From contig NZ_JAOCZP010000001.1 of the NCBI RefSeq assembly GCF_025336525.1, positions 558,001 through 622,000 on the forward strand: 64,000 nt of DNA. The letters are read 5' to 3'. Made by a program: the position numbers and the translations under genes. The notes under the pieces were generated by a model that did no database searches, was not told the origin of the DNA, and saw nothing but the letters and a program-made list of their open reading frames with translations. Below are positions 27,187 to 43,272 of this stretch, piece by piece. Origin of the DNA: Chelativorans salis (GTDB taxonomy: Bacteria > Pseudomonadota > Alphaproteobacteria > Rhizobiales > Rhizobiaceae). The stretch's first letter is position 1. The number at the start of each line of letters is the position of its first letter.

Positions 27187-29720
27187 GCGATTTCCGCCGC
27201 AGCCTTCCCAATCCGGAAACCCGCTCCGAACAGGAGGTGGATGAGCTCCTGCGCATCTGGGCAGTGCCCAAAGGTTTCAGGATCGTGACCGCCGTCAACA
27301 ATACGGTTATCGGCCTGCTCTATATCGGCGCCGCCTTCCTCTTTTTCCTTCTGGCGGGCGTTCTGGCGCTCCTGATGCGCACGCAGCTGGCTGTGCCGGA
27401 TAACGATTTCCTGAGCCAGGATCTCTACAACCAGATCTTCACGGTCCACGGCACGACAATGATGTTCCTCTTCGCCGTGCCGGCGGTGGAGGCGCTGGGG
27501 GTCATGCTCCTGCCGCAGATGCTGGCGGCGCGCGACCTCCCTTTCCCACGCCTGAGCGCCTTTGCGATCTGGGCGTATGTCGTGGGTGGGCTCGTCTTCT
27601 TCTCGACCGTCTTCTACGATCTTGCGCCCAAGGGCGGTTGGTTCATGTACACGCCGCTGACGCTGAAGGAATTCTCGCCCGGCGACAACGCGGATTTCTG
27701 GCTGCTCGGCATCGGTTTCATAGAGATCTCGGCGATTGCCGGCGCCATCGAGATCGTCGTCGGAACGCTGCGGACGCGCCCGCCCGGCATGTCGCTGACC
27801 AAAATGCCGATCTTTGCATGGTCGATGCTGATTTTTGCGGCGATGATCATGTTCGCCTTTCCGGCGGTTATCCTGGGAACGATGCTGCTCGAGATCGAGC
27901 GTTCCTTCGGCTGGCCGTTCTTCACCGCCACCAAGGGCGGAGACCCTCTTCTGTGGCAGCATCTGTTCTGGTTCTTCGGCCACCCGGAGGTCTACATCAT
28001 CTTCCTGCCGGCCGCTGGTCTTGTATCGATGATCGTTCCGACCATGGCGCGCCGGCCGCTGATCGGCTACCGGCTGATCGTGGTGGCGCTGATCGGCACC
28101 GGCTTCTTCTCTTTCGGACTGTGGGTGCACCACATGTTCACCACGGGCATTCCGTCCCTGAGCCTCGCCTTCTTCTCCGCGGCGAGCATGGCGGTCGCCA
28201 TTCCGTCCGGCATCCAGGTGTTTTCGTGGATCGCCACCATGGCGGCCAGCAGAGGCGGCTTCCGTATCACCACGCCGTCGCTGTTCGTCATCGGCTTTCT
28301 CGTTGTCTTCACCATCGGCGGCCTGACGGGTGTGATGGTTGCGCTGGTGCCTGTCGACTACCAGGTGCACGACACCTATTTCGTCGTCGCTCACTTCCAT
28401 TATGTGCTGATTGGCGGAATGGTCTTTCCGCTCATCGCCACTTTCTATTACTGGATGCCGCTAGCAACTGGCAGGCTGCTTTCCGAACGGGTTGGACGAT
28501 GGGTGTTCTGGCTGATGTTCGGCGGCTTCAACATCGCATTCTTCCCCATGCACATCACCGGCCTACGCGGCATGCCGAGACGCGTCTGGACCTACCCAGA
28601 AGGCCTGGGCTGGGATGCGCTCAACATGATTTCAACCGTCGGCGCCTACGTCTTTGCTGCGGGCGTTGCCATCTTCGTGGTCGACCTCATCCGCAGCCAC
28701 CTGCGACCTGCCAACGCGCCGCAAAATCCGTGGGGGGCAGGAACGCTGGAGTGGCTGCCCAATGATGTCTATTCCACTCGTAGCATTCCCTTCGTCACCA
28801 GCAGAGAGCCTTTATGGGATGACCCCACACTGCCCCAGGAGGTGCGCGGCGGACACCACTTCCTTCCGAATGCACCGACCGGCGGCCGCGAGACCATCGT
28901 CACATCGGCGATCGAGGCAAAACCGCAATATATCATTCGTATGCCAGGTCCGGGCTGGGAGCACCTGATCGCGGCAGTCTTCACGGCTGCATTCTTTCTG
29001 CTGCTGACGGTCAAGCTGGTCGTGCCGGCTTTAATATGCGGCGTCATCGCCATAGCCGCCTGCCTCGTCTGGGCCTGGGGGCTTGATCCCGGTCCCTCCA
29101 AAGGTGCGGTAGAGATCGGCGCGGGTATCAGGCTGCCGACTTATGAGAGCGGACCCTCGTCGCATTCCTGGTGGGCGATGGTCGTGCTGATCTTCGTCGC
29201 CGGCTCCCTCTACGTCGCCTATGTCTTCTCCTATCTCTACCTCTGGGTGGTTTCACCGCAGGTCTGGGCGGGCCACGGCTCGCCCGATCTGCCATCTGCT
29301 GTTTGGCCGGTGACGATTGCCCTGCTTGCCATTGCCGGCTCGGCTACGATGCGCGCCGCAGGCCGTCTTCTGCCCGATCCGGGCACGCGCCGCGCCACGC
29401 CGCTATTGCTCATCGCTACCGGCTCACTGGGCCTCATCGCCGCCGTGGCCCTGGAAATGCTGGGCCATTGGCAAAGCGGGCTGCGGCCAACGGAAAGCGC
29501 CTATGGCGCCATGGTCTATATGCAGAGCGCACTCAACGGGCAACTCGCCTTCACCCTTTTTATTATGAGTGGCTTTGCAATCGCTCGTCTGCTTACGGGG
29601 AAGCTCGACCACGTACGCCGGGTAAGTTTCGACAATTTAGCCGTCCTTTATTACTACGTCGCGGCCCAGCTTCTCGTAGGGCTGCTTCTGATCCATGGGT
29701 TTCCGAGAGTGGCCGGATGA
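27183..29720 (+). CDS. coxA: Cytochrome c oxidase subunit I-III fusion (A1-type heme-copper oxidase)
   Basis: 845 residues. Subunit I (about 1-560) shows the low-spin heme ligand in FTVHGTTMMFLF, the CuB/cross-link motif FFGHPEVYIIFLPAAG with the A1-type Glu, the LWVHHMFTTG histidine pair, and HDTYFVVAHFHYVL. Residues ~610-845 are extra helices resembling a shortened subunit III (SWWAMVVLIFVAGSLYVAYV; LEMLGHWQSGL). Together with CoxB it reduces O2 to water and pumps protons. The ATG overlaps the preceding stop; two bases separate its stop from the next start. Confidence 0.95.
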   Translation: MSDFRRSLPNPETRSEQEVDELLRIWAVPKGFRIVTAVNNTVIGLLYIGAAFLFFLLAGVLALLMRTQLAVPDNDFLSQDLYNQIFTVHGTTMMFLFAVPAVEALGVMLLPQMLAARDLPFPRLSAFAIWAYVVGGLVFFSTVFYDLAPKGGWFMYTPLTLKEFSPGDNADFWLLGIGFIEISAIAGAIEIVVGTLRTRPPGMSLTKMPIFAWSMLIFAAMIMFAFPAVILGTMLLEIERSFGWPFFTATKGGDPLLWQHLFWFFGHPEVYIIFLPAAGLVSMIVPTMARRPLIGYRLIVVALIGTGFFSFGLWVHHMFTTGIPSLSLAFFSAASMAVAIPSGIQVFSWIATMAASRGGFRITTPSLFVIGFLVVFTIGGLTGVMVALVPVDYQVHDTYFVVAHFHYVLIGGMVFPLIATFYYWMPLATGRLLSERVGRWVFWLMFGGFNIAFFPMHITGLRGMPRRVWTYPEGLGWDALNMISTVGAYVFAAGVAIFVVDLIRSHLRPANAPQNPWGAGTLEWLPNDVYSTRSIPFVTSREPLWDDPTLPQEVRGGHHFLPNAPTGGRETIVTSAIEAKPQYIIRMPGPGWEHLIAAVFTAAFFLLLTVKLVVPALICGVIAIAACLVWAWGLDPGPSKGAVEIGAGIRLPTYESGPSSHSWWAMVVLIFVAGSLYVAYVFSYLYLWVVSPQVWAGHGSPDLPSAVWPVTIALLAIAGSATMRAAGRLLPDPGTRRATPLLLIATGSLGLIAAVALEMLGHWQSGLRPTESAYGAMVYMQSALNGQLAFTLFIMSGFAIARLLTGKLDHVRRVSFDNLAVLYYYVAAQLLVGLLLIHGFPRVAG

Positions 29721-30264: not shown

Positions 30265-30966
30265 TCATCGGGAGCGCGGCGCGAACAGGCGATCGCGCGA
30301 CCCCTGTAGATGGGCGCGCATCAGCTCGCCCGCGCGGGCGGCGTCCCGGTCTAGAATGGATTGATAGACAGCCGTGTGTTCGACGAACACGTGTTCGAGA
30401 CCATCGGCTGTGCTCTTGAGCGAAAGGCCATGAAGCTTCATGCCGACGGCAATGTGGTCTTCGAGCGCCTGCATGGCTGTCGCGAAATAGGGATTTGCCG
30501 AAGCCTGCGCAATTGAGAGGTGGAACATGAAATCGGCATCGGAGCGGTGCAACTGCCGGTTGGTTGCATCACGCAGCAGGCTCAGGGCGGTCCTGATCTT
30601 CTGCAGCGCCTCCTCGGACCTGCGCTCCGCCGCTAACGCCGCAGCTTTCGGCTCAATGGTCAGCCGGAAATCGTAGCAATGCTGCAGGTCGGAAAGGTTC
30701 TCCATCTGTCCGAAGCCCAGCGGCTCGCGGATGCCCTGCTCGCGCACGAAACTGCCCGACCCGCGCCGGGAATAGATGAGCCCCTGGTCGCGCAGCCGCT
30801 GCAATGCATCGCGGATCACCGGCCGGGAGACCTGGAACTCAGCGGCCAAGGCGTGCTCGGTCGGCAGGCGCTCATCAACGCCGTAGGCCCCCGACTTGAT
30901 CGCCTTCTGGATGCGCTCGAATACCGTATCCGAAAGACTGCGCCGAACATTCAGCCCGTTCAACAT
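30265..30966 (-). CDS. GntR-family regulator, FadR (FCD) subfamily
   Basis: About 233 residues: winged helix-turn-helix (SDTVFERIQKAIKSGAYG; LAAEFQVSRPVIRDALQRLR; GLIYSRRGSGSFV) followed by an all-helical FCD effector domain (FRLTIEPKAAALAAERR; HLSIAQASANPYF with metal/ligand-binding Asp and His). FCD regulators usually bind carboxylates such as sugar acids, which suits the neighbouring kinase and dehydrogenase genes. The ATG at 30966 is nine bases from GGTGG; ATG 30972 is the alternative. It probably controls the two divergent operons of this block. Confidence 0.9.
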   Translation of the reverse strand: MLNGLNVRRSLSDTVFERIQKAIKSGAYGVDERLPTEHALAAEFQVSRPVIRDALQRLRDQGLIYSRRGSGSFVREQGIREPLGFGQMENLSDLQHCYDFRLTIEPKAAALAAERRSEEALQKIRTALSLLRDATNRQLHRSDADFMFHLSIAQASANPYFATAMQALEDHIAVGMKLHGLSLKSTADGLEHVFVEHTAVYQSILDRDAARAGELMRAHLQGSRDRLFAPRSR

Positions 30967-30982
30967 GGTCATATTCCACCCG

Positions 30983-31993
30983 TCACCGTTCCACCCCCAG
31001 ACGCTCCAGGACTTTCACAAATGCATCCGGCGCGCCGAATCCTCCCGACTTTGTGATTAACTTCAGGCGGCCGGCATCGGCAAGGGGCATCCCTGGCAGA
31101 ACTTCGCCAACAACTTCAACGATTACGATGCCGATTTGGCCGAGGACAGTCTGTGCTGTCGCCCCACCCGAAACGATCAGCAGCGCACCCTGTGGCGGAT
31201 CGAGCGCCGCCAGCGCGCTAGCCACCGCAGTCGCGTCGGCCCGTTCCGCACCGGGCACTGCCTGAACAATGGTGATGCCACCCTTCGCCCGGACCTCTGG
31301 CAATACGCCATTGGGCGCCGGGATATAGACCGCCGCCGGATAGCGTTGCCGCAAGCGATCGACCTGTTCGAGCGTGATCGGATCGGTCGATCCAATGACG
31401 AGGATAACCGGGCCGCGATGCGAACCCGTCTCGATAGTGCGCGCCCCCCGCCCCATGCTTTCGGCCTGCGCCTCGGCCAGTGCCCGCGCCCCGATCAAAA
31501 GGTCGTAAACACCTCTCGCCAAAGCGGCGCAAATATCGTCCTGCGTCCCAGCATCGGGAATCTCTGCGCGACCAGCATGTGGCCCGAGCCGATCGGCGAT
31601 GTCGATGGGCGTATCCACCCCGAACCCGCCGAGCTTCCCATCGCGCATCCAGCGTCCGAAGGCCGGAATGGCAGGTATAACGAGGGCTTTCTCATAGGAC
31701 AGGGCGTCGAGCTCGGCCACGAGATTACCCTTGAGGCGCGAGTCAATTTTCTTGAAGAGCTTGGTACCGGCGGGGATATATGCCAGCGTACGCGCCACCC
31801 GCTCGCGTGCCGTCTCCGGCCCGATCTCCCGGCTGTCAGTCGAGACCGCGACCACCTCCGCGCCGGTCTCGAGTGCCTTCTCCAAGGCCTCGGGGGAAAG
31901 GGCGACGACGGTGTGGTGGCCCTGCACGGCGAATGGCGCGGCCGAATCGAGCGCGCCCGACAGATCGTCCGCGATGATCGCCAGCCCGGTCAT
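30983..31993 (-). CDS. Four-carbon acid sugar kinase family protein (DUF1537)
   Basis: 336 residues. IIADDLSGALDSAAPF at the N-terminus, KKIDSRLKGNLVAEL near 80, LIVSGGATAQTVLG near 280 and LITKSGGFGAPDAF at the C-terminus are the substrate and ATP-binding motifs of DUF1537 kinases (DtnK, OtnK type). These phosphorylate C4 sugar acids such as D-threonate or erythronate for a PdxA-family dehydrogenase, which is encoded in the same block. The protein is shorter than the ~420 residues common for the family. Its start overlaps the ABC ATPase gene by four bases. Confidence 0.9.
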   Translation of the reverse strand: MTGLAIIADDLSGALDSAAPFAVQGHHTVVALSPEALEKALETGAEVVAVSTDSREIGPETARERVARTLAYIPAGTKLFKKIDSRLKGNLVAELDALSYEKALVIPAIPAFGRWMRDGKLGGFGVDTPIDIADRLGPHAGRAEIPDAGTQDDICAALARGVYDLLIGARALAEAQAESMGRGARTIETGSHRGPVILVIGSTDPITLEQVDRLRQRYPAAVYIPAPNGVLPEVRAKGGITIVQAVPGAERADATAVASALAALDPPQGALLIVSGGATAQTVLGQIGIVIVEVVGEVLPGMPLADAGRLKLITKSGGFGAPDAFVKVLERLGVER

Positions 31994-33609
31994 GATGGCG
32001 CTGTGGCTGCCATCTGCCGCCTCTGGGCCTGGACGTCGGGGTCAGGATCGAGATTGGCGGCCAACAGCCTCCGCGTATAGGGGTGCTCGGGCGCGTTGAA
32101 GACCTTTTCGGTCGGGCCGCCCTCAACGATCTCGCCTGACTTCATGACCAGCACCATGTCGGCGAAATCGCGCACCACGCCCAGATCGTGGGCGATGAAC
32201 AGGTATGAAATGCCGAACTTTTTCCTTAGCCCGTCGAGCAGCGCCATGACCTGCGCCTGCACCGAAACGTCAAGCGCGGAAACTGCCTCGTCGCAGATGA
32301 TGAGTTCCGGCTCGAGCGCCAGCGCGCGGGCAATGGCGATGCGCTGACGCTGGCCGCCCGAGAACTGGTGCGGATAGCGCTCGGCATGCTCAGGCAAAAG
32401 GCCCACCTGTTCGAGCAGCTCGTCCACCCGCCGGCGCCGCGCCTTGCGGTCCGGCATCAGCCGATGGATGTCCCAGCCCTCGGAAATGAGCTGATAGACC
32501 GACATGCGTGGATTGAGCGATTGCGTGGGGTCCTGGAACACCATCTGGATTTCCCGCCGCACGCTTAGCAATTCTCGCGGCGACATGGTGATCAGATCCT
32601 TGCCCTTCCACAGCGCCTTGCCGCTATCGGCCTTCTCGAGCCGCAGAATGGTCCGCGCTAGGGTCGATTTGCCCGACCCGCTTTCGCCCACGACAGCAAG
32701 GCTCTGGCCGCGCGACAGGGTGAACGAGGCATCCTTGAGCGCAGTGAACTTGCCATAGGACTTGGCGAGCTCTCTGACCTCGAGCAGCGCCGGTGCATCT
32801 GTGGCAGGCTGCTTGATCTCCCCTTTGCCCGGAGCCGCGCCGATCAGCTTGCGCGTATAGGGGTGGCGGGGATGGTGATAGACCTCGCGCACCGAGCCTT
32901 CTTCGACGATCTCGCCCTGGCTCATTACCACCACGCGGTCGGCGATCTCGGCGACCACACCCAGATCGTGGGTTATGAGAACCAGTCCCATACCGGTTTC
33001 AGCCTGCAGTTCCTTCAGCAGCGCCAGCACCTCGGCCTGGATGGTGACGTCAAGCGCGGTGGTCGGCTCGTCGGCAATCAGGATGTCGGGCTTGAGCATC
33101 AGCGCCATGGCGATCATAAGCCGCTGGCGCTGGCCACCCGAGAACTCGTGCGGATATTTCTTCAGCGCCTTTTCGGGGTCGGGTATGCCCACCCGGGTCA
33201 CCAGTTCGAGCGCCCGGGCCCGCGCCTTGTTGGCTGGCCGCCCATGCGCCGTCATCATCTCGACGATCTGCCAGCCCACCGTATAGACCGGATTGAGATG
33301 GCCCAGCGGATCCTGGAAGATCATCGCGATCCGCTTGCCGTTGAGCGCGCGGTGCTCCTCATAGCTGACCTTGAGCAGGTCCTTGCCCTCGAACAGGATC
33401 TCCCCGCTCACCACCTCGGCGGGCGGAATGTCGAGCAGGTTCATCACGGCCGAAGCCGAGACGGATTTACCCGACCCGCTCTCTCCAAGGATTGCGAGCG
33501 TCTCGCCCCTGTTGACCGACCAGCTGGCGTTGCGCACTGCATGGACGGTACCGCGCGCCGTATGAAAGTCCACCGAGAGATTGCGGACGGTGAGCAGGGC
33601 TTCAGTCAT
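31990..33609 (-). CDS. Peptide/opine-type ABC transporter, fused double ATPase
   Basis: 539 residues with two complete ATPase domains: Walker A GESGSGKS at about 43 and GESGSGKST at about 305, signatures FSGGQRQRLMIA and FSGGQRQRIAIA, Walker B ILIADEPTTALD and LIICDEAVSALD, and the C-terminal extension HPYTRKLIGAAPG / HPYTRRLLAANLD typical of Dpp/Opp/GsiA ATPases. This is a DppD-DppF fusion that powers the two adjacent permeases. The start overlaps the permease stop by eight bases. Confidence 0.95.
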   Translation of the reverse strand: MTEALLTVRNLSVDFHTARGTVHAVRNASWSVNRGETLAILGESGSGKSVSASAVMNLLDIPPAEVVSGEILFEGKDLLKVSYEEHRALNGKRIAMIFQDPLGHLNPVYTVGWQIVEMMTAHGRPANKARARALELVTRVGIPDPEKALKKYPHEFSGGQRQRLMIAMALMLKPDILIADEPTTALDVTIQAEVLALLKELQAETGMGLVLITHDLGVVAEIADRVVVMSQGEIVEEGSVREVYHHPRHPYTRKLIGAAPGKGEIKQPATDAPALLEVRELAKSYGKFTALKDASFTLSRGQSLAVVGESGSGKSTLARTILRLEKADSGKALWKGKDLITMSPRELLSVRREIQMVFQDPTQSLNPRMSVYQLISEGWDIHRLMPDRKARRRRVDELLEQVGLLPEHAERYPHQFSGGQRQRIAIARALALEPELIICDEAVSALDVSVQAQVMALLDGLRKKFGISYLFIAHDLGVVRDFADMVLVMKSGEIVEGGPTEKVFNAPEHPYTRRLLAANLDPDPDVQAQRRQMAATAPS

Positions 33610-34525
33610 GTCCAGTCTTCCGGCTTTCGAGGCGCCAGCGTTGCGCAGGGTCGAGCGCGACGCGCATCCAGTTGGAAAGAAGATTGAGCGAGAGGGCGGT
33701 GATGACGATCATCAGCCCCGGCCAGAAGGCCAGCCACCACGCCGTGTTCAGATAGGGCCTTCCCTGGCTGACCATCAGGCCCCAGGTGATGTTCGGCGGC
33801 TGGATGCCGATACCCAGGAACGAGAGCGAGGATTCGGCCAGCATTACGAAAGCGAAGTCCAGCGTCGCGATGGTCACCAGCGTCGGCGCGATGATCGGCA
33901 GGATGTGACGGAAGATAATGCGCCAGTGTGAGGCGCCCATCACCACCGCCGCCTGCACGAACATGCGCTCGCGCACTTCGAGCACCTCGGCGCGCGTGGT
34001 GCGCAGATAGATCGGGATGCGGGTGATGGCCAGCACCAGGATCATGTTGGGGACCGACGGCCCCAGAAGATAAAGCACCACTACGGCCAGCAGCAGCGAG
34101 GGAAAGGACATGATGACGTCGGCAAGTCGCATGACGAGCTGCGAGACATTCTTGCCCATATAGCCGGCCACCAGCCCGAACAGCGCGCCCACAGTCATGG
34201 CCGAGAAAACAGCACCAGCGGCGACCATCATCGTGCTCTGCGCCGCCACAATCAGCCGGGCCAGCACGGGACGGCCCAGTGAATCCCCGCCAAGCACGAA
34301 GGCCCAACCGCGCGACAGATCGAACGGCGGGCTGTTGCGTCCCCTCAGGTTCTGGCTAGCCGCCAGATCGCCCAGGAACACCGGCCCAATGAGGGCGCAG
34401 ATGATGATTATGAGCAGCACCACCGCCGAGACGAAGGCGAACTTGTCGCGCCAGAGCATGGCCAGCAGCGCCGGAGCGCCACGGAGTTCGGCGGGAGAAG
34501 CGTTTGTCTGCGAGATGTCGGTCAT
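33602..34525 (-). CDS. ABC transporter permease, DppC type
   Basis: 307 residues, an N-terminal cytoplasmic leader and six helices. GGDSLGRPVLARLIVAAQST and the EAA-type loop RMFVQAAVVMGASHWRIIFR are the DppC/OppC signatures; SLSFLGIGIQPPNITWGLMV near the C-terminus is also diagnostic. It forms the channel with the DppB-type partner, 14 bases upstream. Antisense to it runs a very long open frame that I consider spurious. Confidence 0.93.
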   Translation of the reverse strand: MTDISQTNASPAELRGAPALLAMLWRDKFAFVSAVVLLIIIICALIGPVFLGDLAASQNLRGRNSPPFDLSRGWAFVLGGDSLGRPVLARLIVAAQSTMMVAAGAVFSAMTVGALFGLVAGYMGKNVSQLVMRLADVIMSFPSLLLAVVVLYLLGPSVPNMILVLAITRIPIYLRTTRAEVLEVRERMFVQAAVVMGASHWRIIFRHILPIIAPTLVTIATLDFAFVMLAESSLSFLGIGIQPPNITWGLMVSQGRPYLNTAWWLAFWPGLMIVITALSLNLLSNWMRVALDPAQRWRLESRKTGHD

Positions 34526-34539
34526 CTTCACCCGCCCCC

Positions 34540-35454
34540 TTACTGCCGGATGCGCGGATCGAGGATCGAATAGGCAATATCGATCAGGATATTCATGATG
34601 AAGATGGCGACGGCCGTGACCAGAATGGCGGCCATGACCACGTTGAAGTCGCGCTGCAGGATGGAATCGATCATCAGCTTGCCGATGCCCGGAAAGCCGA
34701 AGATTGTCTCGACGATCACCGCGCCATTGAGCAGGGCCGCGGCCTGGTCGCCGATCACGGTTATGACCGGCAGCATGGCGTTGCGCAGCGTATGGACGAA
34801 GATGATGGGGCGGTTCTTTACCCCCTTTGCCCGCGCCGTCTTGACGTATGGGGCGGCGAGCGCCGAAAGCATGGAACCGCGCACCACCTGCACGATCAGC
34901 CCGAACGGGCGGATGAACAGCACCGCCACCGGCATGATCCAGTGCCAGGGGGTCCCAACCCCCGAGGTGGGCAGCCAGCCCAGATTGATAGCAAAGAGCA
35001 CAATGGCGACGATGGCGATCCAAAAGTCGGGCGCCGAGGCCCCGATCAGCGATACCACGGAAATGCCGCGATCGATGATGCCGCCCACATTGAACGCCGC
35101 GATGGCGCCAAGAACGATGGCTGCGACGACGACAAGGGCCATAGTGATAAGCGCCAGGGGCAGCGTCCAGGCATAGGCTTCCAGCACCACGTCGATCGCT
35201 GGCCGCGCCCGCCTCAGGGATTCCCCGAAATCGAGCCGCAGCACATCCCAAACATACATGACGAACTGCTCGAGGACCGGGCGGTCAAGACCGTGCAGCG
35301 TGCGAAACTGCTGCTTCATTTCCTCGGTCGCATCGATCGGCAGGAACAGTGCCGCGGGGTCGCCCGTCAGCCGCGAGAGGAAGAAGACCATCACCATCAG
35401 GACAACGAGCGAGGCAAGGCTCGCAATCGCCCTCTGTCCGATCAATCCGATCAT
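34540..35454 (-). CDS. ABC transporter permease, DppB type
   Basis: 304 residues, six helices, starting IGLIGQRAIASLASLVVLMV, with FFLSRLTGDPAALFLP and LDFGESLRRARPAIDVV characteristic of DppB/OppB proteins and the cytoplasmic coupling loop APYVKTARAKGVKNR. It lies 75 bases after the binding-protein gene and 14 before the second permease. Confidence 0.93.
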   Translation of the reverse strand: MIGLIGQRAIASLASLVVLMVMVFFLSRLTGDPAALFLPIDATEEMKQQFRTLHGLDRPVLEQFVMYVWDVLRLDFGESLRRARPAIDVVLEAYAWTLPLALITMALVVVAAIVLGAIAAFNVGGIIDRGISVVSLIGASAPDFWIAIVAIVLFAINLGWLPTSGVGTPWHWIMPVAVLFIRPFGLIVQVVRGSMLSALAAPYVKTARAKGVKNRPIIFVHTLRNAMLPVITVIGDQAAALLNGAVIVETIFGFPGIGKLMIDSILQRDFNVVMAAILVTAVAIFIMNILIDIAYSILDPRIRQ

Positions 35455-35529
35455 TGGGGTCCACCGGTGCGTTTCAGAAGGGGCGCCGCCGGCCCAACCG
35501 GCGCCGCCTGTTCCACGATTGGCCAGAGC

Positions 35530-37035
35530 TTACTTGAAGCCAATTTCGGAAAGTTGCAGTTGCGAATTGGTCGCGATGGTGGGCCGGAAATCGAGCCGTT
35601 CGCTGACCCGGCTGTGACCGACCATGTGGAACAGCAGCACGTCGGCTACAACCTCCTCGTGGATATAGGCGAACAGCTCCGACCACAACGCCGCGCGCTC
35701 GTCGCCGGTCGCGGCGGTCGCCCGCTCGATCAGATCGTCCACATGTGGGTCGGAAATGCCCGACTGCGTGCCCTCGCTGTGATACTTGAAGAACATCGAG
35801 AACACCGGGTCACCACGGCTGTTGTCGTGTTGGGCAAGAATCAGGCGCGTGCCTTCGCTTTCCGGATAGGGCTTGGAGTAGTACTGCTCATGCTCTGCCA
35901 CTTCCACCATGCGCAAGCTGGCGTTGAACCCAACTTCGCTGAGCATCTGGGTCAGCGCCTCGGCCACTTCCGTCACGTTGGGGAAGTTCCCGGTGCGCGC
36001 GATGATCTCGATGGGCAGGTTCACATCGACGCCGTCGGCCGCGGCCTTCTCGAGCAATTGGCGGGCCAGGTCCGGATCATAGGCGGGCGGCTCGAGACCG
36101 CCGTTCCAGCCCAGGGTGGTGGGCGGGACGATGGTGACGGCAAGCTCGGTGCCCTCCGAGAGCAGCGTGCCGATGAACGCCTCGCGGTCGATGGCGTGGT
36201 TGAGCGCCTGGCGCACGCGGATGTCGTCGGTCGGCGCATCGGCGCTGTCGATGCGCAGATAGACCGTCTCGGAGTTCGGATAGCTGAAGTCGGTCGCCGG
36301 GTTGGTCGCTTCGAGCTCGGTGATCTGCGGAGCGATATCGGCTTCCCCGGTCTCAACCATCGCCGCGCGCACCGCAGCCTCGCTGCGGAATACGTAGCGG
36401 GCCGAGCTCACCTCGGGCTGCTCGCCCCAATAATCGTCGCGCCGGTCGAGCTGGATATGCTGCCCGGCCTGCCATTCCGAGAGCACATAGGGTCCGGTGC
36501 CGATCGGCTCGCGCACAAATTCCATCGGCGTTTCAGAAGGCACGATGGTCACGAGCGTCATGAGCAGCGGCAGGATGGGCTGCGCCGGCTCGGAGGTGAT
36601 GTCGATAGTTAAATCGTCGACGACCTCGAAGCTCAGCTCCGTATCGGCGAAATAGCGCGCGCTCTCGCAGGTGACGTCCTCACTGAAGACGCGGTCGAAG
36701 GTGTGCTGGACGTCTGCCGCGTCGAACGCGGAGCCATCCGAGAAGGTGACGTTGGGCCGCAGATGGAAGCGCCACACGCCGTCGCCAAGATCTTCCCAGC
36801 TCTCGGCGAGCCGCGGCATCAGGCCTTCATCGCCCCGCACGTCCAGCTCGGTCAGCGTTTCGCTCACATTCTGCATGATGACGCGCCCGATATTGGAACG
36901 CGTAGCCATGCAGGGGTCGACGAGGTCAAGCTCCTCGCTGAGCACCACGGTAATGTCGGTATTGTCCTGCGCCAGCACCGGCGTTACCGCCGCCGACGCA
37001 AAGAGTGCGCCTGCAATCAGGTATCTGAGGGTCAA
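35530..37035 (-). CDS. Family 5 solute-binding protein of peptide-type ABC importer
   Basis: 501 residues from TTG 37035, with an excellent AGGGAGG upstream and a clear Sec signal (LRYLIAGALFASAAVTPVLAQ, cleavage after LAQ). The mature protein follows the SBP family 5 layout: DNTDITVVLSEELDLVDPC, SDGSAFDAADVQHTFDRV, GTGPYVLSEWQAGQHIQL, RQALNHAIDREAFIGTLL. These proteins bind oligopeptides, opines or oligosaccharides. The cluster it belongs to has sugar-acid enzymes, so the ligand is more likely a glycoside or acid than a peptide. Longer frames to 37182 lack a ribosome site. Confidence 0.93.
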   Translation of the reverse strand: MTLRYLIAGALFASAAVTPVLAQDNTDITVVLSEELDLVDPCMATRSNIGRVIMQNVSETLTELDVRGDEGLMPRLAESWEDLGDGVWRFHLRPNVTFSDGSAFDAADVQHTFDRVFSEDVTCESARYFADTELSFEVVDDLTIDITSEPAQPILPLLMTLVTIVPSETPMEFVREPIGTGPYVLSEWQAGQHIQLDRRDDYWGEQPEVSSARYVFRSEAAVRAAMVETGEADIAPQITELEATNPATDFSYPNSETVYLRIDSADAPTDDIRVRQALNHAIDREAFIGTLLSEGTELAVTIVPPTTLGWNGGLEPPAYDPDLARQLLEKAAADGVDVNLPIEIIARTGNFPNVTEVAEALTQMLSEVGFNASLRMVEVAEHEQYYSKPYPESEGTRLILAQHDNSRGDPVFSMFFKYHSEGTQSGISDPHVDDLIERATAATGDERAALWSELFAYIHEEVVADVLLFHMVGHSRVSERLDFRPTIATNSQLQLSEIGFK

Positions 37036-37333
37036 TGCATCCTCCCTTGGCAGCCTCGTCAAGCGGCTGAGCGGCGCTGCCGGACGCCCAGCGGCATGGG
37101 AAACGGCCCCTCTCTTGGTTCCAGAGCCGGCGCCACTATCCATGCCCGCGCCAAATTTGTCAAATCTAAATGAACGGCGCAAGGCTTATCGCTCGCGCTG
37201 CAACCATAACAGATTGTTTTTATTTATAATTTACTTAGTTTGCAAGGAAATCTTACAAATTATAGACACGTAATAACTTGACAACATTCCAGTTCGCGTG
37301 GAGGTATTGCAGCCAAGACGCGAAGGAGGACCC
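37036..37333. promoter_or_regulatory. Divergent promoter region of the acid-sugar block
   Basis: 298 bases between the binding-protein gene (minus) and the BNR protein gene (plus). Bases 37200-37290 are AT-rich, with TTTATTTATAATTTACTTAG-like runs and TTGACA at 37278-37283. It is the only sizeable gap in the block and must carry both operon promoters and presumably the GntR operator; I cannot define a confident palindrome. Confidence 0.45.
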
Positions 37334-38503
37334 ATGTCTCCCAAGGACATCGCCGCCGCCATGACGGGGCAGCTCACCCAGGGGCCGTCCGGAAGGCTCG
37401 AAGCCTTCCTCCCCTCCCCCATGGTCCAGAACCACGCCGCCTTCATCGAGCGGCTGGAGGATGGCACCCTGGTGAGCCTGTGGTTCGGCGGCACGCTGGA
37501 AGGCAAGTCCGACATTTCCATTTTCGGGTCCACACTCGCCCCGGGCGCCGAGGCCTGGAGCGCGCCGGTGCGCCTTTCGGACGATCCTGAACGCTCCGAG
37601 CAGAATCCCCTCCTCGCTCATAACGGGCTGGGCTGGCAGCTCTTCCACACCGCCCAGCCGGCGGGCAACCAGGACGAATGCCTGCTGCGCGCCCGCGAGA
37701 TCACCCTGACCAGTGGACGTATCGGCGGGGGCGAACCGCGCATCCTTGACCTGCCGCACGGCTGTTTCATCCGCGGGCGCTTCGTCCGCCGCAAGGACGG
37801 GGCGTGGATGATGCCGATCTTCCGCTGCGTCTCCCGCCCCGGCCAGCGCTGGACCGGTAGCCACGACACCGCCGCCGTCGGCATCAGCCATGACAATGGG
37901 CAGACCTGGACTCTCGAAGAGATTCCCGGCTCGATCGGCTCGGTTCACATGACCATCGTGCCGCTCGACGGTGACCGGATGGTCGCCTTCTACCGCCGCC
38001 GCCAGTCCGATTTCGTCCACCGCTCGGTGAGCGAGGATGGCGGAGTGACGTGGTCGGCGCCCGAGCCCACTGACGTTCCCAACAACAATTCCTCCATCAA
38101 CGTCGTCCGGCTCACCGACGGGCACCTGGCCATGGTGTGCAACCCCACTTCTGCCGCCACCTCCTCGGACCGCCGCGCCTCGCTCTATGACGAGATCGAG
38201 GAGGGTGACGACCGCCCCGATGCCAGCGGCGGGTGCAAGCCGATCTGGGGTGTCCCCCGCGCGCCGCTGAGCCTGTGTATTTCGACCGACGAGGGCCGCA
38301 CCTTCCCGCTGCGCCGCATCATCGACGACAGCCCCGGCACGTGCCTCTCCAACAATTCGGAGGACGGACGCAACAAGGAGCTATCCTATCCCTACCTGCT
38401 CGAAGGAGATGATGGCGCCATCCATGTCGCCTACACCTACTTCCGGCGTGCAATCAAATATGTCCAGCTGCCCAAGGGCTGGATATACGGAGAAGAGGCG
38501 TGA
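37334..38503 (+). CDS. Sialidase-like BNR/Asp-box repeat protein (predicted neuraminidase family)
   Basis: 389 residues. Repeated Asp-box-like segments ([39 protein letters not shown]) define a six-bladed beta-propeller of the sialidase superfamily. [20 protein letters not shown] and [15 protein letters not shown] are typical of the COG4692-like predicted neuraminidase branch, not classic GH33. There is no signal peptide, so it should act in the cytoplasm on an imported compound. ATG 37334 has AAGGAGG. It overlaps the PdxA-like gene by four bases. The true substrate is unknown; it may be a glycoside hydrolase or lyase for something other than sialic acid. Confidence 0.82.
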
Positions 38504-39450
38504 GCGACATCATCGGCATCACAATGGGCGATCCCGCGGGCGTCGGACCGGAAATCACCGTCCGCGCCATAGCCGAAATGAGCGAAACCGACCGGGCCCG
38601 GACCCGCATCTACGGCCATCGCAATACTCTGGAAAAGGCGCTGGAAGCCTCCAATCTCTCGCTCGATCTCGGCCCCCTGGTCGAGAATATCGAGATCGAA
38701 GGCGGCGTGCTCCCCTGGGGCAAGCTCGACGCCCGCGCGGGCGACGCGGCCTATCGCTTCATTGCTCGCGCCGTCTCGGACGCCCAGGGAAACAAGATCG
38801 GCTGCATCGTCACGGCGCCGATCAACAAGGAAGCGCTCAACCTCGCCGGACACCATTATGACGGCCACACTGGCATGCTGGCCGCACTCACCGGCCAGCG
38901 TTCCGCCTTCATGCTCCTGGCCTCCGACCGGCTCAAGGTGATCCACGTCTCGACCCACGTGTCGCTCAAGACCGCGATCGACCGCGCCACGCCCGAACGG
39001 ATTCTCGCTACAATCCGCGCCGGCAACGACCACCTCAAGCGCATCGGCTACGAGACGCCACGCATCGCTGTGGCCGGCATCAATCCCCATTGCGGCGAGA
39101 ACGGGTTGTTCGGTACCGAGGACGACGAGCAGATCGTCCCAGCCATCGAGATGGCGCGTGCCGAAGGCATCGAGGTTGCCGGTCCCATCTCCGCCGACAC
39201 CGTCTATCACCGCGCCTATAACGGCGCCTTCGACCTGGTGGTCGCGCAATATCACGACCAGGGCCACATCCCGATCAAGCTGGTGGCCTTCGATACTGCC
39301 GTCAACATCTCGCTCGGCCTGCCCATCGACCGCACCTCGGTCGACCATGGCACGGCCTTCGACATTGCCGGCACTGGCAAGGCCAACCACACCAACATGA
39401 ACGCGGCCATCGCCTATGCCCGCAAACTCGCTGCCCGGAGAGCACAATGA
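38500..39450 (+). CDS. PdxA-family 4-phosphate dehydrogenase, probable catabolic PdxA2
   Basis: 316 residues starting [17 protein letters not shown], with [13 protein letters not shown], the metal-binding HTGMLAALT region, [11 protein letters not shown] and [11 protein letters not shown], the complete PdxA active site. PdxA oxidises 4-hydroxythreonine-4-phosphate in vitamin B6 synthesis, but paralogues beside DUF1537 kinases (PdxA2) oxidise and decarboxylate D-threonate- or erythronate-4-phosphate to dihydroxyacetone phosphate. The context here, with kinase and importer, supports the catabolic role. GTG start overlaps the BNR gene; the stop overlaps the lyase gene by four bases. Confidence 0.9.
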
Positions 39451-40376
39451 ACCCCGCCCGCACCCTGCCGATCAGCGGCGTATTCTGTGCCGCCGCCACC
39501 CCGGTTCTTCAGAACGGCGAGCCCGACCACGCCACCTTCGCCGACCATTGCAAGGCCCTGCTCGAAGAAGGCTGCGACGGCATCGCTCTGCTCGGAACCA
39601 CCGGAGAGGCTAATTCCTTTTCCATCTCCCAGCGCCAGGACCTGCTCGACCAGGTGATCGCGGCGGGCATCGACCCTAAGCGCCTGATGCCGGGCACCTC
39701 CCAGAACAACGTCGCCGACAGTGTCACCCTTACCCGTCACGCCGTCGACCGCGGCGTCGCCGCCTGTGTGGTGCTGCCCCCCTTCTACTATAAAGGGGTG
39801 AGCGACGAGGGACTGTTCCAATTCTATTCCGAACTGATCGAGGGCGTGGGGAGCGACGATCTGCGGATTGTTCTTTATCACATTCCCCCTATCGCCCAGG
39901 TGGGGCTCTCCCTGGACCTTGTCGGGCGCCTGCTCGAGAGCTTTCCCGGTATCGTCATCGGCGTCAAGGACAGCTCGGGCAAGCTCGACAGCATGCAGTC
40001 CTTTGCCAGCGCATACCACAATTTCTCGGTCCTCGCCGGGGCCGACCCGTTAATGCTGCCCCTGCTGCGTTCAGGCGGCGCCGGCTGCATCACCTCGAGC
40101 TCGAATCTCATCGCCTCCCATCTGCGCTTCGTTTTCGACAACTGGTTCGACCCGGCGCTCGAAGGCGAGGTGGACCGCGTTCAGCAGCGCATCGACGCCT
40201 GGCGCACTCTTTCCAACGCTTATGTGCAGCTGCCGACCGTCAAGGCCATGCTGGCCCGGCGCAGGAACCACGAGGGCTGGACGCGCGTACGCCCGCCGCT
40301 CGTTGCGCTCACGCCAGACGAGGTCGAGGTGGTGTGGCGGCAGATGGCTGAACTCGAGGCGACTGACAATGGCTAA
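39447..40376 (+). CDS. DapA/NanA-family lyase or dehydratase
   Basis: 309 residues of the (beta/alpha)8 Schiff-base aldolase family: [15 protein letters not shown] (GTTGE, ~48), Tyr of LYHIPPIAQ (~144), Lys of [11 protein letters not shown] (~172, Schiff base) and the later [12 protein letters not shown]. Family members include dihydrodipicolinate synthase, N-acetylneuraminate lyase and 2-keto-3-deoxy-sugar-acid aldolases. Because it is in a catabolic operon, cleavage of a keto-deoxy acid into pyruvate and an aldehyde is the likely activity. It overlaps both neighbours by four and eight bases. Confidence 0.9.
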
Positions 40377-41511
40377 ATCCGCTCTCTCGATGGCCCGACC
40401 GATCACCCTGCTCCAGCCGCCCAGACTGGAGATCGGCGCCGGCGCAATCACTCGCCTCGGGGAATTCTCCAACCGTTTCCGCCGCATCTTCGTCGTCGCC
40501 ATGGCGCCCACCGCGCCCTATGTCGAACGCATCGGGCTGAAGGGCGCCGTTGAATCCTATATCGACCTGCCCCCCGAGCCTGACCTGCCTTCGGTCGAGG
40601 CCGTGCTCGACGCGGCCCGCGCCTTCGAGCCCGATCTCGTGATCGGCCTGGGCGGCGGCTCGGCCATGGACGTCGCGAAGCTGGTGGCTGTCCTCTGGGA
40701 CAGCGAACAGACCATTCCCGAAGTGGTCGGCCCCGGCAAGGTCCAGAGCCGCCGGACCGCCCTCGTTCAGGTCCCCACCACCTCGGGTACCGGCTCGGAA
40801 GCCGGCACGCGCGCGCTCGTGACCAATCCTGCAACCCTCGCCAAACTTGCGGTTGAAAGCGAACACATGCTGGCCGATATGGCCGTGCTCGACCCTGAGC
40901 TGACCTATTCCGTCCCCGCTCCCGTGACAGCCGCGACCGGCGTGGACGCTCTCGCCCATTGCGTGGAGGCCTTTACAAACATCAAGGCCCATCCGCTCAT
41001 TGATGGCTATGCCCGGCTCGGCATCAAGCTGGTTGGCCGCTATCTCAAGCGCGCCGTTGCCGATGGTTCAGATGTGGAGGCCCGCGCCGGCATGATGCTC
41101 GCCTCTTATTACGGCGGGATCTGCCTCGGACCGGTCAACACCGCCGCCGGCCACGCCCTCGCCTACCCGCTCGGCACACGCCTCAAGCTGCCACACGGAC
41201 TGGCCAACGCGATCATTTTTCCCCATGTGCTGGCCTTCAATGCGTCCGCCTGCCGGGAAAAGACCCGCGAGATCACCGAATTGCTCGGGCTTTCCGCCGA
41301 TGGTGACACCATCCTCGATGAGAGCCACAGATATTGCTGCAGCCTCGGGCTCGAGATGGACCTTGCCGGCCACGGAGCCCGGCAGGACCATCTGCAGGAC
41401 TGGGCTCGGGAGGCCCACGGCATTCGGCGCCTAATGGACAACAATCCGCGCGCCATGAACGTTGAGGACATTCTCGCCATATACAGCGCCGCGCTGCACC
41501 CGCGGCCCTGA
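40369..41511 (+). CDS. Iron-containing alcohol dehydrogenase (group III)
   Basis: 380 residues. The NAD-binding loop LVIGLGGGSAMDVAKLVAVL (~residue 90), PTTSGTGSEAGTRA (~140), and metal-binding histidines in DALAHCVEAF, HPLIDGYA, AAGHALAYPLG and LPHGLANAIIF are all in place. It would reduce or oxidise the short aldehyde/alcohol made by the neighbouring lyase. It is the last gene of the operon, overlapping the lyase gene by eight bases. Substrate unknown. Confidence 0.93.
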   Translation: MAKSALSMARPITLLQPPRLEIGAGAITRLGEFSNRFRRIFVVAMAPTAPYVERIGLKGAVESYIDLPPEPDLPSVEAVLDAARAFEPDLVIGLGGGSAMDVAKLVAVLWDSEQTIPEVVGPGKVQSRRTALVQVPTTSGTGSEAGTRALVTNPATLAKLAVESEHMLADMAVLDPELTYSVPAPVTAATGVDALAHCVEAFTNIKAHPLIDGYARLGIKLVGRYLKRAVADGSDVEARAGMMLASYYGGICLGPVNTAAGHALAYPLGTRLKLPHGLANAIIFPHVLAFNASACREKTREITELLGLSADGDTILDESHRYCCSLGLEMDLAGHGARQDHLQDWAREAHGIRRLMDNNPRAMNVEDILAIYSAALHPRP

Positions 41512-41861: not shown

Positions 41862-42827
41862 GTGAGCATCTTGGCGGTGCCCGACACCTTCATGTCGTGC
41901 CTGTCCGGCATCTTCGACACGCTCATCGAGGCCCGCGACGCGGTTTCGCGGGATCTCGCATTCGAGCCGGAGATCGTTGCCGCGACACCCCGGATCGAGA
42001 TCGGCAAGAGCCGCATGCCGCTCGACGCGCACCGCACGCTCGACGAGATCGACCGCACCGACATCGTCATCGTAGCCGCATCGGTTATGGACGGCGCGCG
42101 ATGGACGACAGCACGCTATGGCGAGGTGGTGGGCTGGCTTCGCCTGATGCACGATCGCGGCGCGATCCTCTGCTCGGCCTGTTCCGGTGCGTTGCTTCTG
42201 GCGGAAACGGGGCTGCTCGATGGCGAGGAAGCGACGACTCATTGGGCGCTGGAGCGCTATTTCAAGGAGACGTTTCCGAAGGTCAGACTGCGGCTTGAAA
42301 GGGAACTGGTCGTGAGCGGAGCGGATGGCCGTCTGGTAATGTCCGGCGCATCGACGGTCTGGCACGACCTGACGCTCTACCTGATCGCCCGCTTCAACGG
42401 CCCGGCGACCGCCCGCGCCGTGGCGAAATACTTCATGCTGCAATGGCATGCGGACAGTCAGGGCGCCCTTCTTCTCGTTCGAGGAGAGGACCATGGCGAT
42501 GCGGCGGTCCTGGCAGCCCAGAAATGGCTCCAGGAGAACTGGCGCGAACAGGCTCCGTCGAGGGAATGATCGAGAGTTCCGGGCTATCGGAGCGGAACTT
42601 CAAGCGCCGATTTCGCAGCGACCGGCCATTCGCCCATCGGCTATGTGCAAGGCTTGAGGATCGAACGGGCGAAGCACCGGCTCGAGAGGCCCGCCGATCC
42701 GATCGAGCGCATCAGTTGGGATATCGGTTACGAGGATGCGTCATTCTTCCGACGGCTGTTCAAGCGCACGGTCGGCATGAGGCCTGTCGACTATCGAAAG
42801 AGGTTCGACAGCCGCCACCTACGCTGA
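41862..42827 (+). pseudogene. Frameshifted GlxA-type AraC regulator (DJ-1/PfpI domain plus HTH)
   Basis: Residues 1-~200 form a DJ-1/PfpI-like domain (LAVPDTFMSCLSGIFDTL; GAILCSACSGALLLAETGLL with the usual Cys position). After EQAP the frame is lost: EGMIESSGLSERNFKRRFRS continues in another frame, and YVQGLRIERAKHRLER to the end (GYEDASFFRRLFKRTVG) returns to the first. Two compensating frameshifts near 42555 and 42625 therefore break the AraC-type HTH region. An intact version would be a ~320-residue transcription activator. Sequencing error is possible, but neighbouring remnants favour true decay. Confidence 0.75.
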
Positions 42828-43272
42828 CTGTTCAATGTCCGCAGATCGATGCCTTGCGTCATTCGGCTGTCCACCGGCAATGACGCATTTCCACCCAACC
42901 GCGACGAAGGACGCTCCGCGGCTGTACGGCAGAACCGAATCCTTCGGCCGGCTCGGTCCCGCCATTTCTTGACATTCGCAGCGCTTCTCCGAAGCCTACC
43001 TTCGCGTTCCGGCCGGTGTCGACCTCTTGCAGACCCTCGCGCTTCGGGCGCAAGGACAAGAGCCGCGGCTCTAAACGGTCGCTCGGGTTAAACGTGATCC
43101 TTCTCATGCTCGCTCCCGTGCTCGTCGGGGCCGTGCCGGATTGGGAACCCCGATGATGTCCGGGCTCATCCCTTGTCTCGACGAAGTAATGTTCTGGCCT
43201 CGACACTACTTCTGCCGGTGGAGTTTCCCTTCACAGCGGATAGCGCGCCCGATCCGAACCCGGGTGTACGCT
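42828..43272. other. 445-base region without a supported gene
   Basis: The only structure I see is a 9-bp perfect inverted repeat, tgcgtcatt (42855-42863) and aatgacgca (42879-42887), just after the broken AraC gene; it lacks a T-run but may be its terminator. The minus-strand frame over 42859-43206 has implausible composition and no ribosome site. Confidence 0.35.

Follow-up and report, generated by a model that had tools for sequence, protein, structure and literature searches.

A conserved gene block of Chelativorans salis with a sialidase-fold protein and D-threonate-type enzymes: a possible route for catabolism of a pectin sugar acid

Introduction

D-Threonate is reportedly catabolized to dihydroxyacetone phosphate (DHAP) and CO2 by DtnK, a kinase of the DUF1537 family, and PdxA2, a route attributed to Zhang et al. 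in 2016. Here we describe a block of ten genes at positions 30265-41511 of a 64,000-nucleotide stretch of Chelativorans salis DNA (contig NZ_JAOCZP010000001.1; the whole stretch is referred to here as the window), in which a DUF1537 kinase and a PdxA2-type dehydrogenase are encoded together with a sialidase-fold protein (BNR), a DapA/NanA-family lyase, an iron-containing alcohol dehydrogenase (Fe-ADH), an Opp/Dpp-type importer and a GntR/FCD regulator. Our data give about an even chance that this block converts 3-deoxy-D-lyxo-heptulosaric acid (Dha), a rare sugar acid with seven carbons from the pectin of plants, to pyruvate and a glycolysis intermediate. The last two steps would be those of D-threonate catabolism, leading to DHAP, and the corresponding enzymes of one related cluster (L121) pass the D-threonate models. 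Unlike in that pathway, D-threonate would arise within the cell through the lyase and the Fe-ADH rather than enter as a nutrient.

In sialic acid catabolism, YhcH opens cyclic Neu5Ac and thereby supplies the lyase NanA (PMC8141875). The block shares with this system a sialidase-fold protein, a lyase of the NanA/DapA superfamily and, in its relatives, a YhcH-family gene, and it would follow the same opening logic. Its product, in contrast, would go to a four-carbon (C4) acid and DHAP rather than to N-acetylmannosamine, and none of the ten block proteins is of the nanEK type. Dha is a seven-carbon analogue of sialic acid present in rhamnogalacturonan II (RG-II) (PMC6811678; PMC12168206). RG-II occurs in all plants (PMC12168206), and Bacteroides is known to have enzymes that liberate its sugars (PMC12282258). 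The Dha hydrolase of Bacteroides thetaiotaomicron, from glycoside hydrolase family GH143, is a five-fold propeller that has a Tyr-Glu pair (PMC6811678); it acts on the same sugar that we propose for the block and, like BNR, it is sialidase-like, whereas BNR aligns with GH33-type sialidases and carries a His opposite the Glu of an aligned sialidase.

The Escherichia coli region GR 6 (nagE..glnS) and a cluster of Sinorhizobium meliloti 1021 are homologous to the block (PMC12928451). That 2026 paper assigns the E. coli genes, which include a sialidase, dapA, adh, PdxA2, DUF1537 and perhaps a citrate-type permease, to a region of uncharacterised sugar metabolism. It points out that the S. meliloti 1021 cluster is similar, and interprets the PdxA2/DUF1537 pair as serving pyridoxal phosphate synthesis; its excerpts assign no substrate, and the word 'threonate' was not found in its main text. 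Among the open-access matches listed and their excerpts, no paper assigns the cluster a substrate or describes Dha catabolism, which agrees with an initial annotation of the window that had presented the cluster as lacking a defined substrate. PMC13220900 was discarded as a source on Dha since the string 'Dha' in it comes from the author name Dhar. If our proposal is true, it would provide a function for a widely mis-annotated 'exo-alpha-sialidase' family, would explain why a gene annotated as D-threonate kinase lies beside a sialidase-like gene, and would open the fate of a rare sugar of the diet and of root walls to testing.

Results and Discussion

Conservation of the block as a unit

A scan of a species-genome collection with BNR peptide patterns gave 61 named loci, from Devosia, Pelagibacterium, Sinorhizobium, Ensifer, Rhizobium, Shinella, Mesorhizobium, Aureimonas, Paracoccus, Limimaricola and other genera; counts made on these loci are anchored on BNR and favor close relatives. 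We left out 10 loci shorter than 20 kb and called gene presence in the remaining 51 by blastp identity thresholds set per gene, from 23% for the solute-binding protein to 50% for the ADH. All ten functions were found as separate reading frames in 48 of the 51 loci, with several rearranged gene orders, and this count rises to 49 if fusions are included. The latter concerns Devosia psychrophila (L018:10001-12133), where BNR and PdxA2 share one frame of 711 amino acids and tblastn places PdxA in the BNR frame; this may reflect either genuine fusion of the two genes or a sequencing error where they overlap. Among the incomplete loci, L067 lacks DUF1537 and a matched solute-binding protein, and L069 lacks the regulator, DUF1537 and PdxA within its stretch. 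Furthermore, every one of the 51 loci contains a single type of lyase, either DapA-A (30 loci) or DapA-B (21 loci), and never both or neither. Since DapA-A and DapA-B are distant (about 21-25% identity) and mutually exclusive, the lyase step appears to be needed.

We also counted co-occurrence within the same genome across 199 genomes of the window's family, which are phylogenetically non-independent. BNR matches were found in 31 genomes, of which G361, G369, G375 and G449 (E > 1e-8) were dropped, leaving 27 (E <= 1e-110), and DUF1537 matches in 54, of which 31 with E > 1e-28 were dropped, leaving 23. BNR was present in 26 of the 27 genomes with the ADH (E <= 1e-90), 22 of the 23 with DUF1537 (E < 1e-28), 23 of the 25 with PdxA (E <= 1e-120) and 16 of the 17 with DapA-B (E <= 1e-80). 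G468 contains a close PdxA within a cluster that appears unrelated. The host genome of the window has a second PdxA and six other DapA-family genes, so neither PdxA nor the lyase of the block is the only copy of its family. Judged from these sequence comparisons, the ten-gene block is a real conserved catabolic unit. The initial annotation had likewise proposed one catabolic unit, and the condition it gave for its refutation, a lack of conservation of BNR, the lyase and the ADH with the kinase, PdxA2 and importer, is contradicted by the 48 of 51 loci and by the ADH genomes.

The window BNR is 87% identical to a Pelagibacterium protein and 49-66% identical to those of the 26 other genomes of the family sample, and BNR is absent from the two other genomes of the same genus in that sample. 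Its proximity to Pelagibacterium together with its absence from congeners suggests horizontal transfer. In a wider sample of the class, any BNR match was found in 7 of 289 genomes, and a close one in two. Relatives of the block are located on two Sinorhizobium plasmids, on a Pantoea plasmid (without a DUF1537 match) and in Devosia. On pSymB of Sinorhizobium meliloti Rm41 (L127), all ten functions are present, with DapA-B as the lyase. A plasmid collection contained 310 records with a BNR relative (E <= 1e-5), including 128 from Rhizobium, 78 from Sinorhizobium and 27 from Pantoea.

Related clusters and the type of substrate

Related enzymes were also found in clusters with other types of importer. 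In E. coli E2348/69 (L123:2868-11847; NZ_CP059840.2 3526278-3535257, between glnS and nagE), one side carries, by RefSeq names, DeoR, a D-threonate 4-phosphate dehydrogenase and dtnK, and the facing side an Fe-ADH, a DapA-family lyase, TerC, a sialidase family protein, a NanQ/TabA/YiaL-family protein and an SLC13 permease. In Pfam, this permease matches the citrate transporter family CitMHS best. This cluster was matched in 1044 of 5426 complete E. coli genomes, with at least 80% of the query covered in 1043. Three clusters from one other family of the phylum (L120, L121 and L122) and a Pantoea plasmid (L125) contain PdxA2, Fe-ADH, DapA-B and a BNR of 45-48% identity, with DUF1537 in L120 and L121. 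A sodium:solute symporter (SSF) gene lies in the L121 and L125 rows, and a gene of the YhcH/YjgK/YiaL family in those of L121, L122 and L125. In E. coli, in L121 and L122 and on two Pantoea plasmids, BNR is followed by the YhcH/NanQ-family gene, and the L121 and L122 proteins pass the wider YhcH/YjgK/YiaL model TIGR00022. We found that the L121 kinase passes the D-threonate kinase model (615.4 versus a cut-off of 450) and the L121 PdxA2 the D-threonate 4-phosphate dehydrogenase model (681.5 versus 583).

G340 (L116) has BNR with a TRAP-TAXI importer, and G349 (L114-L115) has BNR and an Opp-type importer plus relatives of TctC (67%), TctA (79%), 2-hydroxyacid dehydrogenase and Ldh2. G429 (L112), which has no BNR match, carries the regulator, DUF1537 and ADH opposite TctC, TctA, DapA-B, a D-2-hydroxyacid dehydrogenase and PdxA. 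In 19.9 kb of G563 (L119), also without BNR, Ldh2, a 2-hydroxyacid dehydrogenase, DapA-B, a TctC match (25% identity) and the ADH form a row opposite PdxA and an open reading frame (ORF) that by eye resembles DUF1537. Tct transporters carry di- and tricarboxylates, and the CitMHS and Tct genes in these relatives fit a polycarboxylate substrate. The YhcH-family gene, in turn, fits a cyclic ulosonic acid. The initial annotation had suggested import of a larger glycoside or of a nonulosonic/uronic-type compound; the CitMHS/SLC13, symporter, TRAP-TAXI and (without BNR) TctC/TctA genes beside related enzymes point to a small carboxylic acid rather than a glycoside.

Some genes of these relatives deserve mention in their own right. 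The TerC-family membrane protein gene of E. coli lies at L123:8123-8881, and similar ORFs were seen by eye in L058, L059, L069, L070 and L114. A D-2-hydroxyacid dehydrogenase lies beside DapA-B, with Tct-type importer genes, at L112:13032-13997, L114:17979-19900 and L119:7425-9475, with Ldh2 also in L114 and L119, as if a 2-hydroxy acid were also supplied to the lyase. On the Pantoea piersonii plasmid pGABEKP28_1 (L126), symporter, BNR, YhcH-family and short-chain dehydrogenase/reductase (SDR) genes stand together. Annotation shows no lyase, ADH or kinase gene within 8 kb of them, and this set may be a sub-module.

Catalytic residues and families of the four enzymes

The DUF1537 (four-carbon acid sugar) kinase (30983..31993, minus strand) is short, with 336 amino acids. 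Both of its domains, PF07005 and PF17042 (SBD_N and NBD_C), score over the Pfam cut-off, and its AlphaFold2 model (pLDDT 94.8) has the two-domain fold of the family. Eight PDB chains matched the model at E <= 0.001; six of them bear the title DUF1537 and the two of 3dqq the title putative tRNA synthase; we take 3dqq to belong to the DUF1537 family. The eight closest chains have 393-420 residues and the E. coli dtnK-annotated protein has 411, 75 more than the window kinase. Residues D9, D10, R55, K81, K82, D84, G276, G277 and K315 are common to the window and E. coli proteins, and the window kinase retains the Asp-Asp, Lys-Lys-x-Asp and Gly-Gly motifs. The PdxA2-type 4-phospho-C4-acid dehydrogenase (38500..39450, plus strand) matches PF04166 with 336 bits and has H123, H153, H197, H252 and H256 conserved in four of four sequences. 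Its nearest solved chains are 2hi1 (PdxA 2, 292 bits), 4jqp (4-hydroxythreonine-4-phosphate dehydrogenase, 287.2) and 6e85 (D-threonate 4-phosphate dehydrogenase, 283.6), and the chains named PdxA 1 score lower (1yxo, 170.3; 1r8k, 166.4).

The lyase (39447..40376, plus strand; PF00701) is of type DapA-A. The Schiff-base Lys174 and the catalytic Tyr144 occur in five of five sequences (one DapA-A and four DapA-B) and Thr51 is kept, which places it in the DapA/NanA superfamily; it falls under the equivalog cut-offs of both DapA (TIGR00674, 135.0 versus 206.15) and NanA (TIGR00683, 82.2 versus 382). The Fe-ADH (40369..41511, plus strand, start ATG 40369; PF00465 and PF25137), a proposed C4-semialdehyde-acid reductase, has D193, H197, H262, H276 and GGGS in four of four sequences. 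Its best NCBIfam scores are to sulfoacetaldehyde reductase, ErcA and 4-hydroxybutyrate dehydrogenase, all far below cut-off. Since these nearest models include reductases of anionic aldehydes, they are consistent with reduction of a C4 semialdehyde acid.

A proposed pathway from Dha to pyruvate and DHAP

We propose that the Opp-type importer would take up the substrate and that the sialidase-fold BNR would then supply the free or open-chain 2-oxo acid, which is the weakest step. The DapA-family lyase, whose family and whose obligatory presence as either DapA-A or DapA-B support this role, would split the C3-C4 bond to give pyruvate and a four-carbon semialdehyde acid, and the Fe-ADH would reduce the C4 aldehyde to D-threonate. 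The DUF1537 kinase would convert D-threonate to D-threonate 4-phosphate, and PdxA2 would oxidize and decarboxylate the latter to DHAP; both are known reactions of their families, and the identity of D-threonate in these steps is carried over from the gammaproteobacterial versions. The logic of this pathway appears well supported by family membership and gene neighborhood.

Pyruvate plus a C4 acid implies a seven-carbon (C7) 2-keto-3-deoxy dicarboxylic acid as substrate. In a Fischer-projection check, the lyase product of Dha (D-lyxo) is D-threonate once reduced. Among eight stereoisomers, D-lyxo and D-xylo lead to D-threonate and L-arabino and L-ribo to D-erythronate, so that a stereochemical match would arise by chance in one case in four; we regard it as support, not proof. 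The initial annotation had considered the substrate not inferable, which now looks too pessimistic because annotation of the E. coli version names D-threonate as its C4 acid. Overall, its interpretation stands in part. Conservation and family membership support one catabolic unit for a sialic-acid-like (ulosonic) type of substrate, in which the lyase releases pyruvate and a C4 acid is phosphorylated and oxidized. Import of a larger glycoside is not supported.

Several observations weigh against the Dha pathway. The window kinase scores under the D-threonate kinase cut-off (NF047819, 85.8 versus 450) and the window PdxA2 under that of D-threonate 4-phosphate dehydrogenase (NF002891, 323.7 versus 583), and the D-threonate identity is taken over by analogy from relatives that are about 30% (kinase) and about 50% (PdxA2) identical. 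The score of the window PdxA lies above the cut-off of the generic pdxA equivalog as well (344.9 versus 290.35), as does that of L121 (365.2). The L121 Fe-ADH scores highest as lactaldehyde reductase (218.0), slightly over ErcA and 4-hydroxybutyrate dehydrogenase, all far below cut-off. No DUF1537 match was found in L122 or L125 within the stretch examined. The YhcH-family proteins of L121 (105.1) and L122 (96.3) fall under the NanQ anomerase cut-off of 160 (NF040884), and by Pfam no YhcH-family gene is among the ten of the window block. An Opp-type importer by itself would suggest a larger ligand, and the extra genes of some versions (2-hydroxyacid dehydrogenase, Ldh2, TerC, SDR) are not explained by the proposed pathway. 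Finally, His205 at the sialidase Glu position weakens the case for ketoside hydrolysis by BNR.

Some of these observations could fit the same downstream chemistry acting on another parent compound, either a different C7 2-keto-3-deoxy diacid or a conjugate that the lyase would turn into a product still ending as D-threonate (or as D-erythronate in the alphaproteobacterial version). The short, diverged window kinase below the D-threonate cut-off, the other stereoisomers that yield D-threonate or D-erythronate and the several importer types across versions all leave room for such a parent. We nevertheless consider it rather unlikely, as the E. coli and L121 versions indicate D-threonate and we know of no natural C7 2-keto-3-deoxy diacid besides Dha.

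That the window PdxA passes the generic model also bears on vitamin B6 salvage, in which DUF1537 and PdxA2 would serve phosphorylation of 4-hydroxythreonine and the other genes would be mere neighbors. Such a side activity of some DUF1537 proteins is on record (PMC7954711), and the 2026 E. coli paper takes the pair in this sense (PMC12928451). Salvage does not account for the lyase, ADH, BNR and importer, all of them conserved together with these two genes, and the host genome encodes a second PdxA; we judge this explanation very improbable. Nearly as improbable is that the block serves Kdo (3-deoxy-D-manno-octulosonic acid) or a nonulosonic acid of the sialic acid type, which the sialidase fold, the NanA-superfamily lyase and, in relatives, the YhcH/NanQ-family gene could suggest. 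Kdo yields pyruvate and D-arabinose and sialic acids yield a C6 amino sugar, and neither product feeds a C4-acid kinase and PdxA2. Indeed, none of the ten block proteins was identified by Pfam as an N-acetylmannosamine kinase, an epimerase or an arabinose enzyme.

The sialidase-fold protein

BNR (37334..38503, plus strand; BNR_2, no signal peptide seen by eye) has the sialidase beta-propeller fold along its whole chain; of the 50 closest folds listed, 49 carry sialidase or neuraminidase in their titles. We found that a Glu of neuraminidase C, which we take to be the catalytic Glu, aligns with His205 of BNR in two alignments, and this His is present in 10 of 10 members. BNR therefore lacks the partner Glu that, with a catalytic Tyr, characterizes GH33, and a canonical sialidase is ruled out by the His at the aligned Glu. 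Tyr352 was matched to the sialidase nucleophile by position only. Regarding the arginine triad of sialidases, R221 or R222, depending on which of two alignments is used, faces one sialidase Arg; R309 and the change of the RIP motif to QNH34 were judged by eye. Membership in GH143 is not claimed, since the sequence match was weak and to 5mqr only (E 0.11), a structure that is presumably the GH143 Dha hydrolase BT1020. No GH143 protein was among the best 50 fold matches listed, which carries no weight either way.

For the second step of the Dha pathway, hydrolysis of a short ketoside by BNR is most likely, and a mutarotase or lactonase is less likely. As such an enzyme, BNR would open a cyclic or lactonised acid in the cytoplasm after import of the free acid; this affects the second step only, is compatible with the Dha pathway, and seems to us possible though not probable. 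The conserved His that faces the sialidase Glu is in keeping with it, as are the TRAP-TAXI, SSF and CitMHS importer genes beside BNR. NanM, moreover, is a beta-propeller. It is also an anomerase that stimulates NanA (PMC8141875). A mutarotase or lactonase would, however, be redundant with the YhcH-family gene that already stands beside BNR in the gammaproteobacterial versions, and 49 of 50 fold matches bear sialidase or neuraminidase titles.

Taken together, these data raise a broader picture, which we put forward tentatively and at less than even probability. The block would be the first catabolic route for Dha and a hybrid of a sialic-acid-style opening, by a sialidase-fold enzyme and a NanA-superfamily lyase, with the D-threonate pathway. 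BNR would be a new cytoplasmic enzyme that processes ulosaric acids, with Tyr-His replacing Tyr-Glu, and the route would have spread horizontally among rhizobia, Devosia, Pantoea and about one-fifth of complete E. coli, so that gut and root bacteria might scavenge a pectin sugar.

Shared promoter and regulation

The two operons of the block diverge from a promoter region of 298 bases (37036..37333), between the start codons TTG 37035 of the solute-binding protein and ATG 37334 of BNR. It contains AACTTGACAAC at 37275-37285, with its first base 59 bases before the BNR start, and TTGTCAA at 37157-37163. In 51 of the 61 loci, the 150 nt upstream of BNR contain CTTGACAAC, against 0.035 loci expected from mononucleotide shuffling; the core of AACTTGACAAC is absent in the other 10, and the AACTTGACAAC site also resembles and overlaps a -35-like hexamer. 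A palindromic TTGWCAA core suits an operator of the GntR type. We propose AACTTGACAAC and TTGTCAA as candidate sites for the GntR/FCD transcription regulator (30265..30972, minus strand; PF00392 and PF07729), a relative of which is present in 50 of the 51 loci that reach 20 kb; through the conserved TTGWCAA sites it would govern both operons. Genome-wide, the 13-base site occurs three times (one exact and two with one mismatch) versus four for a reversed control, which gives no grounds for claiming additional regulon members. The palindrome TTGCAAG-N5-CTTACAA of the window was dropped because none of the other upstream regions scanned contained it in that form.

Gene calls and flanking genes

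Gene calling and Pfam on the window (GC range 0.575-0.684 in 2-kb steps; host genome 5.66 Mb in 19 contigs) gave the same coordinates and families for all named genes as the initial annotation, together with its two divergent, overlapping operons around the 298-base region. From the promoter outward, the minus strand encodes a solute-binding protein, two permeases, a fused ATPase, the DUF1537 kinase and the regulator, and the plus strand BNR, PdxA, the lyase and the Fe-ADH. Five of the eight within-operon junctions are overlaps of 4 or 8 bases, and the remaining three are gaps of 10, 14 and 75. The importer consists of a family 5 solute-binding protein (SBP_bac_5, 501 amino acids; 35530..37035, minus strand; PF00496), with GGGAGG before its TTG start and a signal peptide recognized by eye, a DppB-like permease (34540..35454, minus strand; PF00528), a DppC-like permease (33602..34525, minus strand; PF00528 and PF12911; start ATG 34525, MTDISQ) and an Opp/Dpp-type ATPase with two fused ABC domains (31990..33609, minus strand; PF00005 twice, oligo_HPY). 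BNR most likely starts at ATG 37334, giving 389 amino acids, and not at the start of the 401-amino-acid ORF; most of the 120 homologues listed have 389-390 amino acids (range 380-406).

The block is flanked by a cytochrome oxidase subunit gene (27129-29720), a DJ-1/PfpI-family ORF at 41862 and an APH-family gene (43273-44490), none of which has an evident link to it. At 41862-42883, the DJ-1/PfpI-family ORF is followed by an ORF in another frame that by eye resembles the rest of a GlxA/AraC-type regulator, and the two may represent an interrupted gene.

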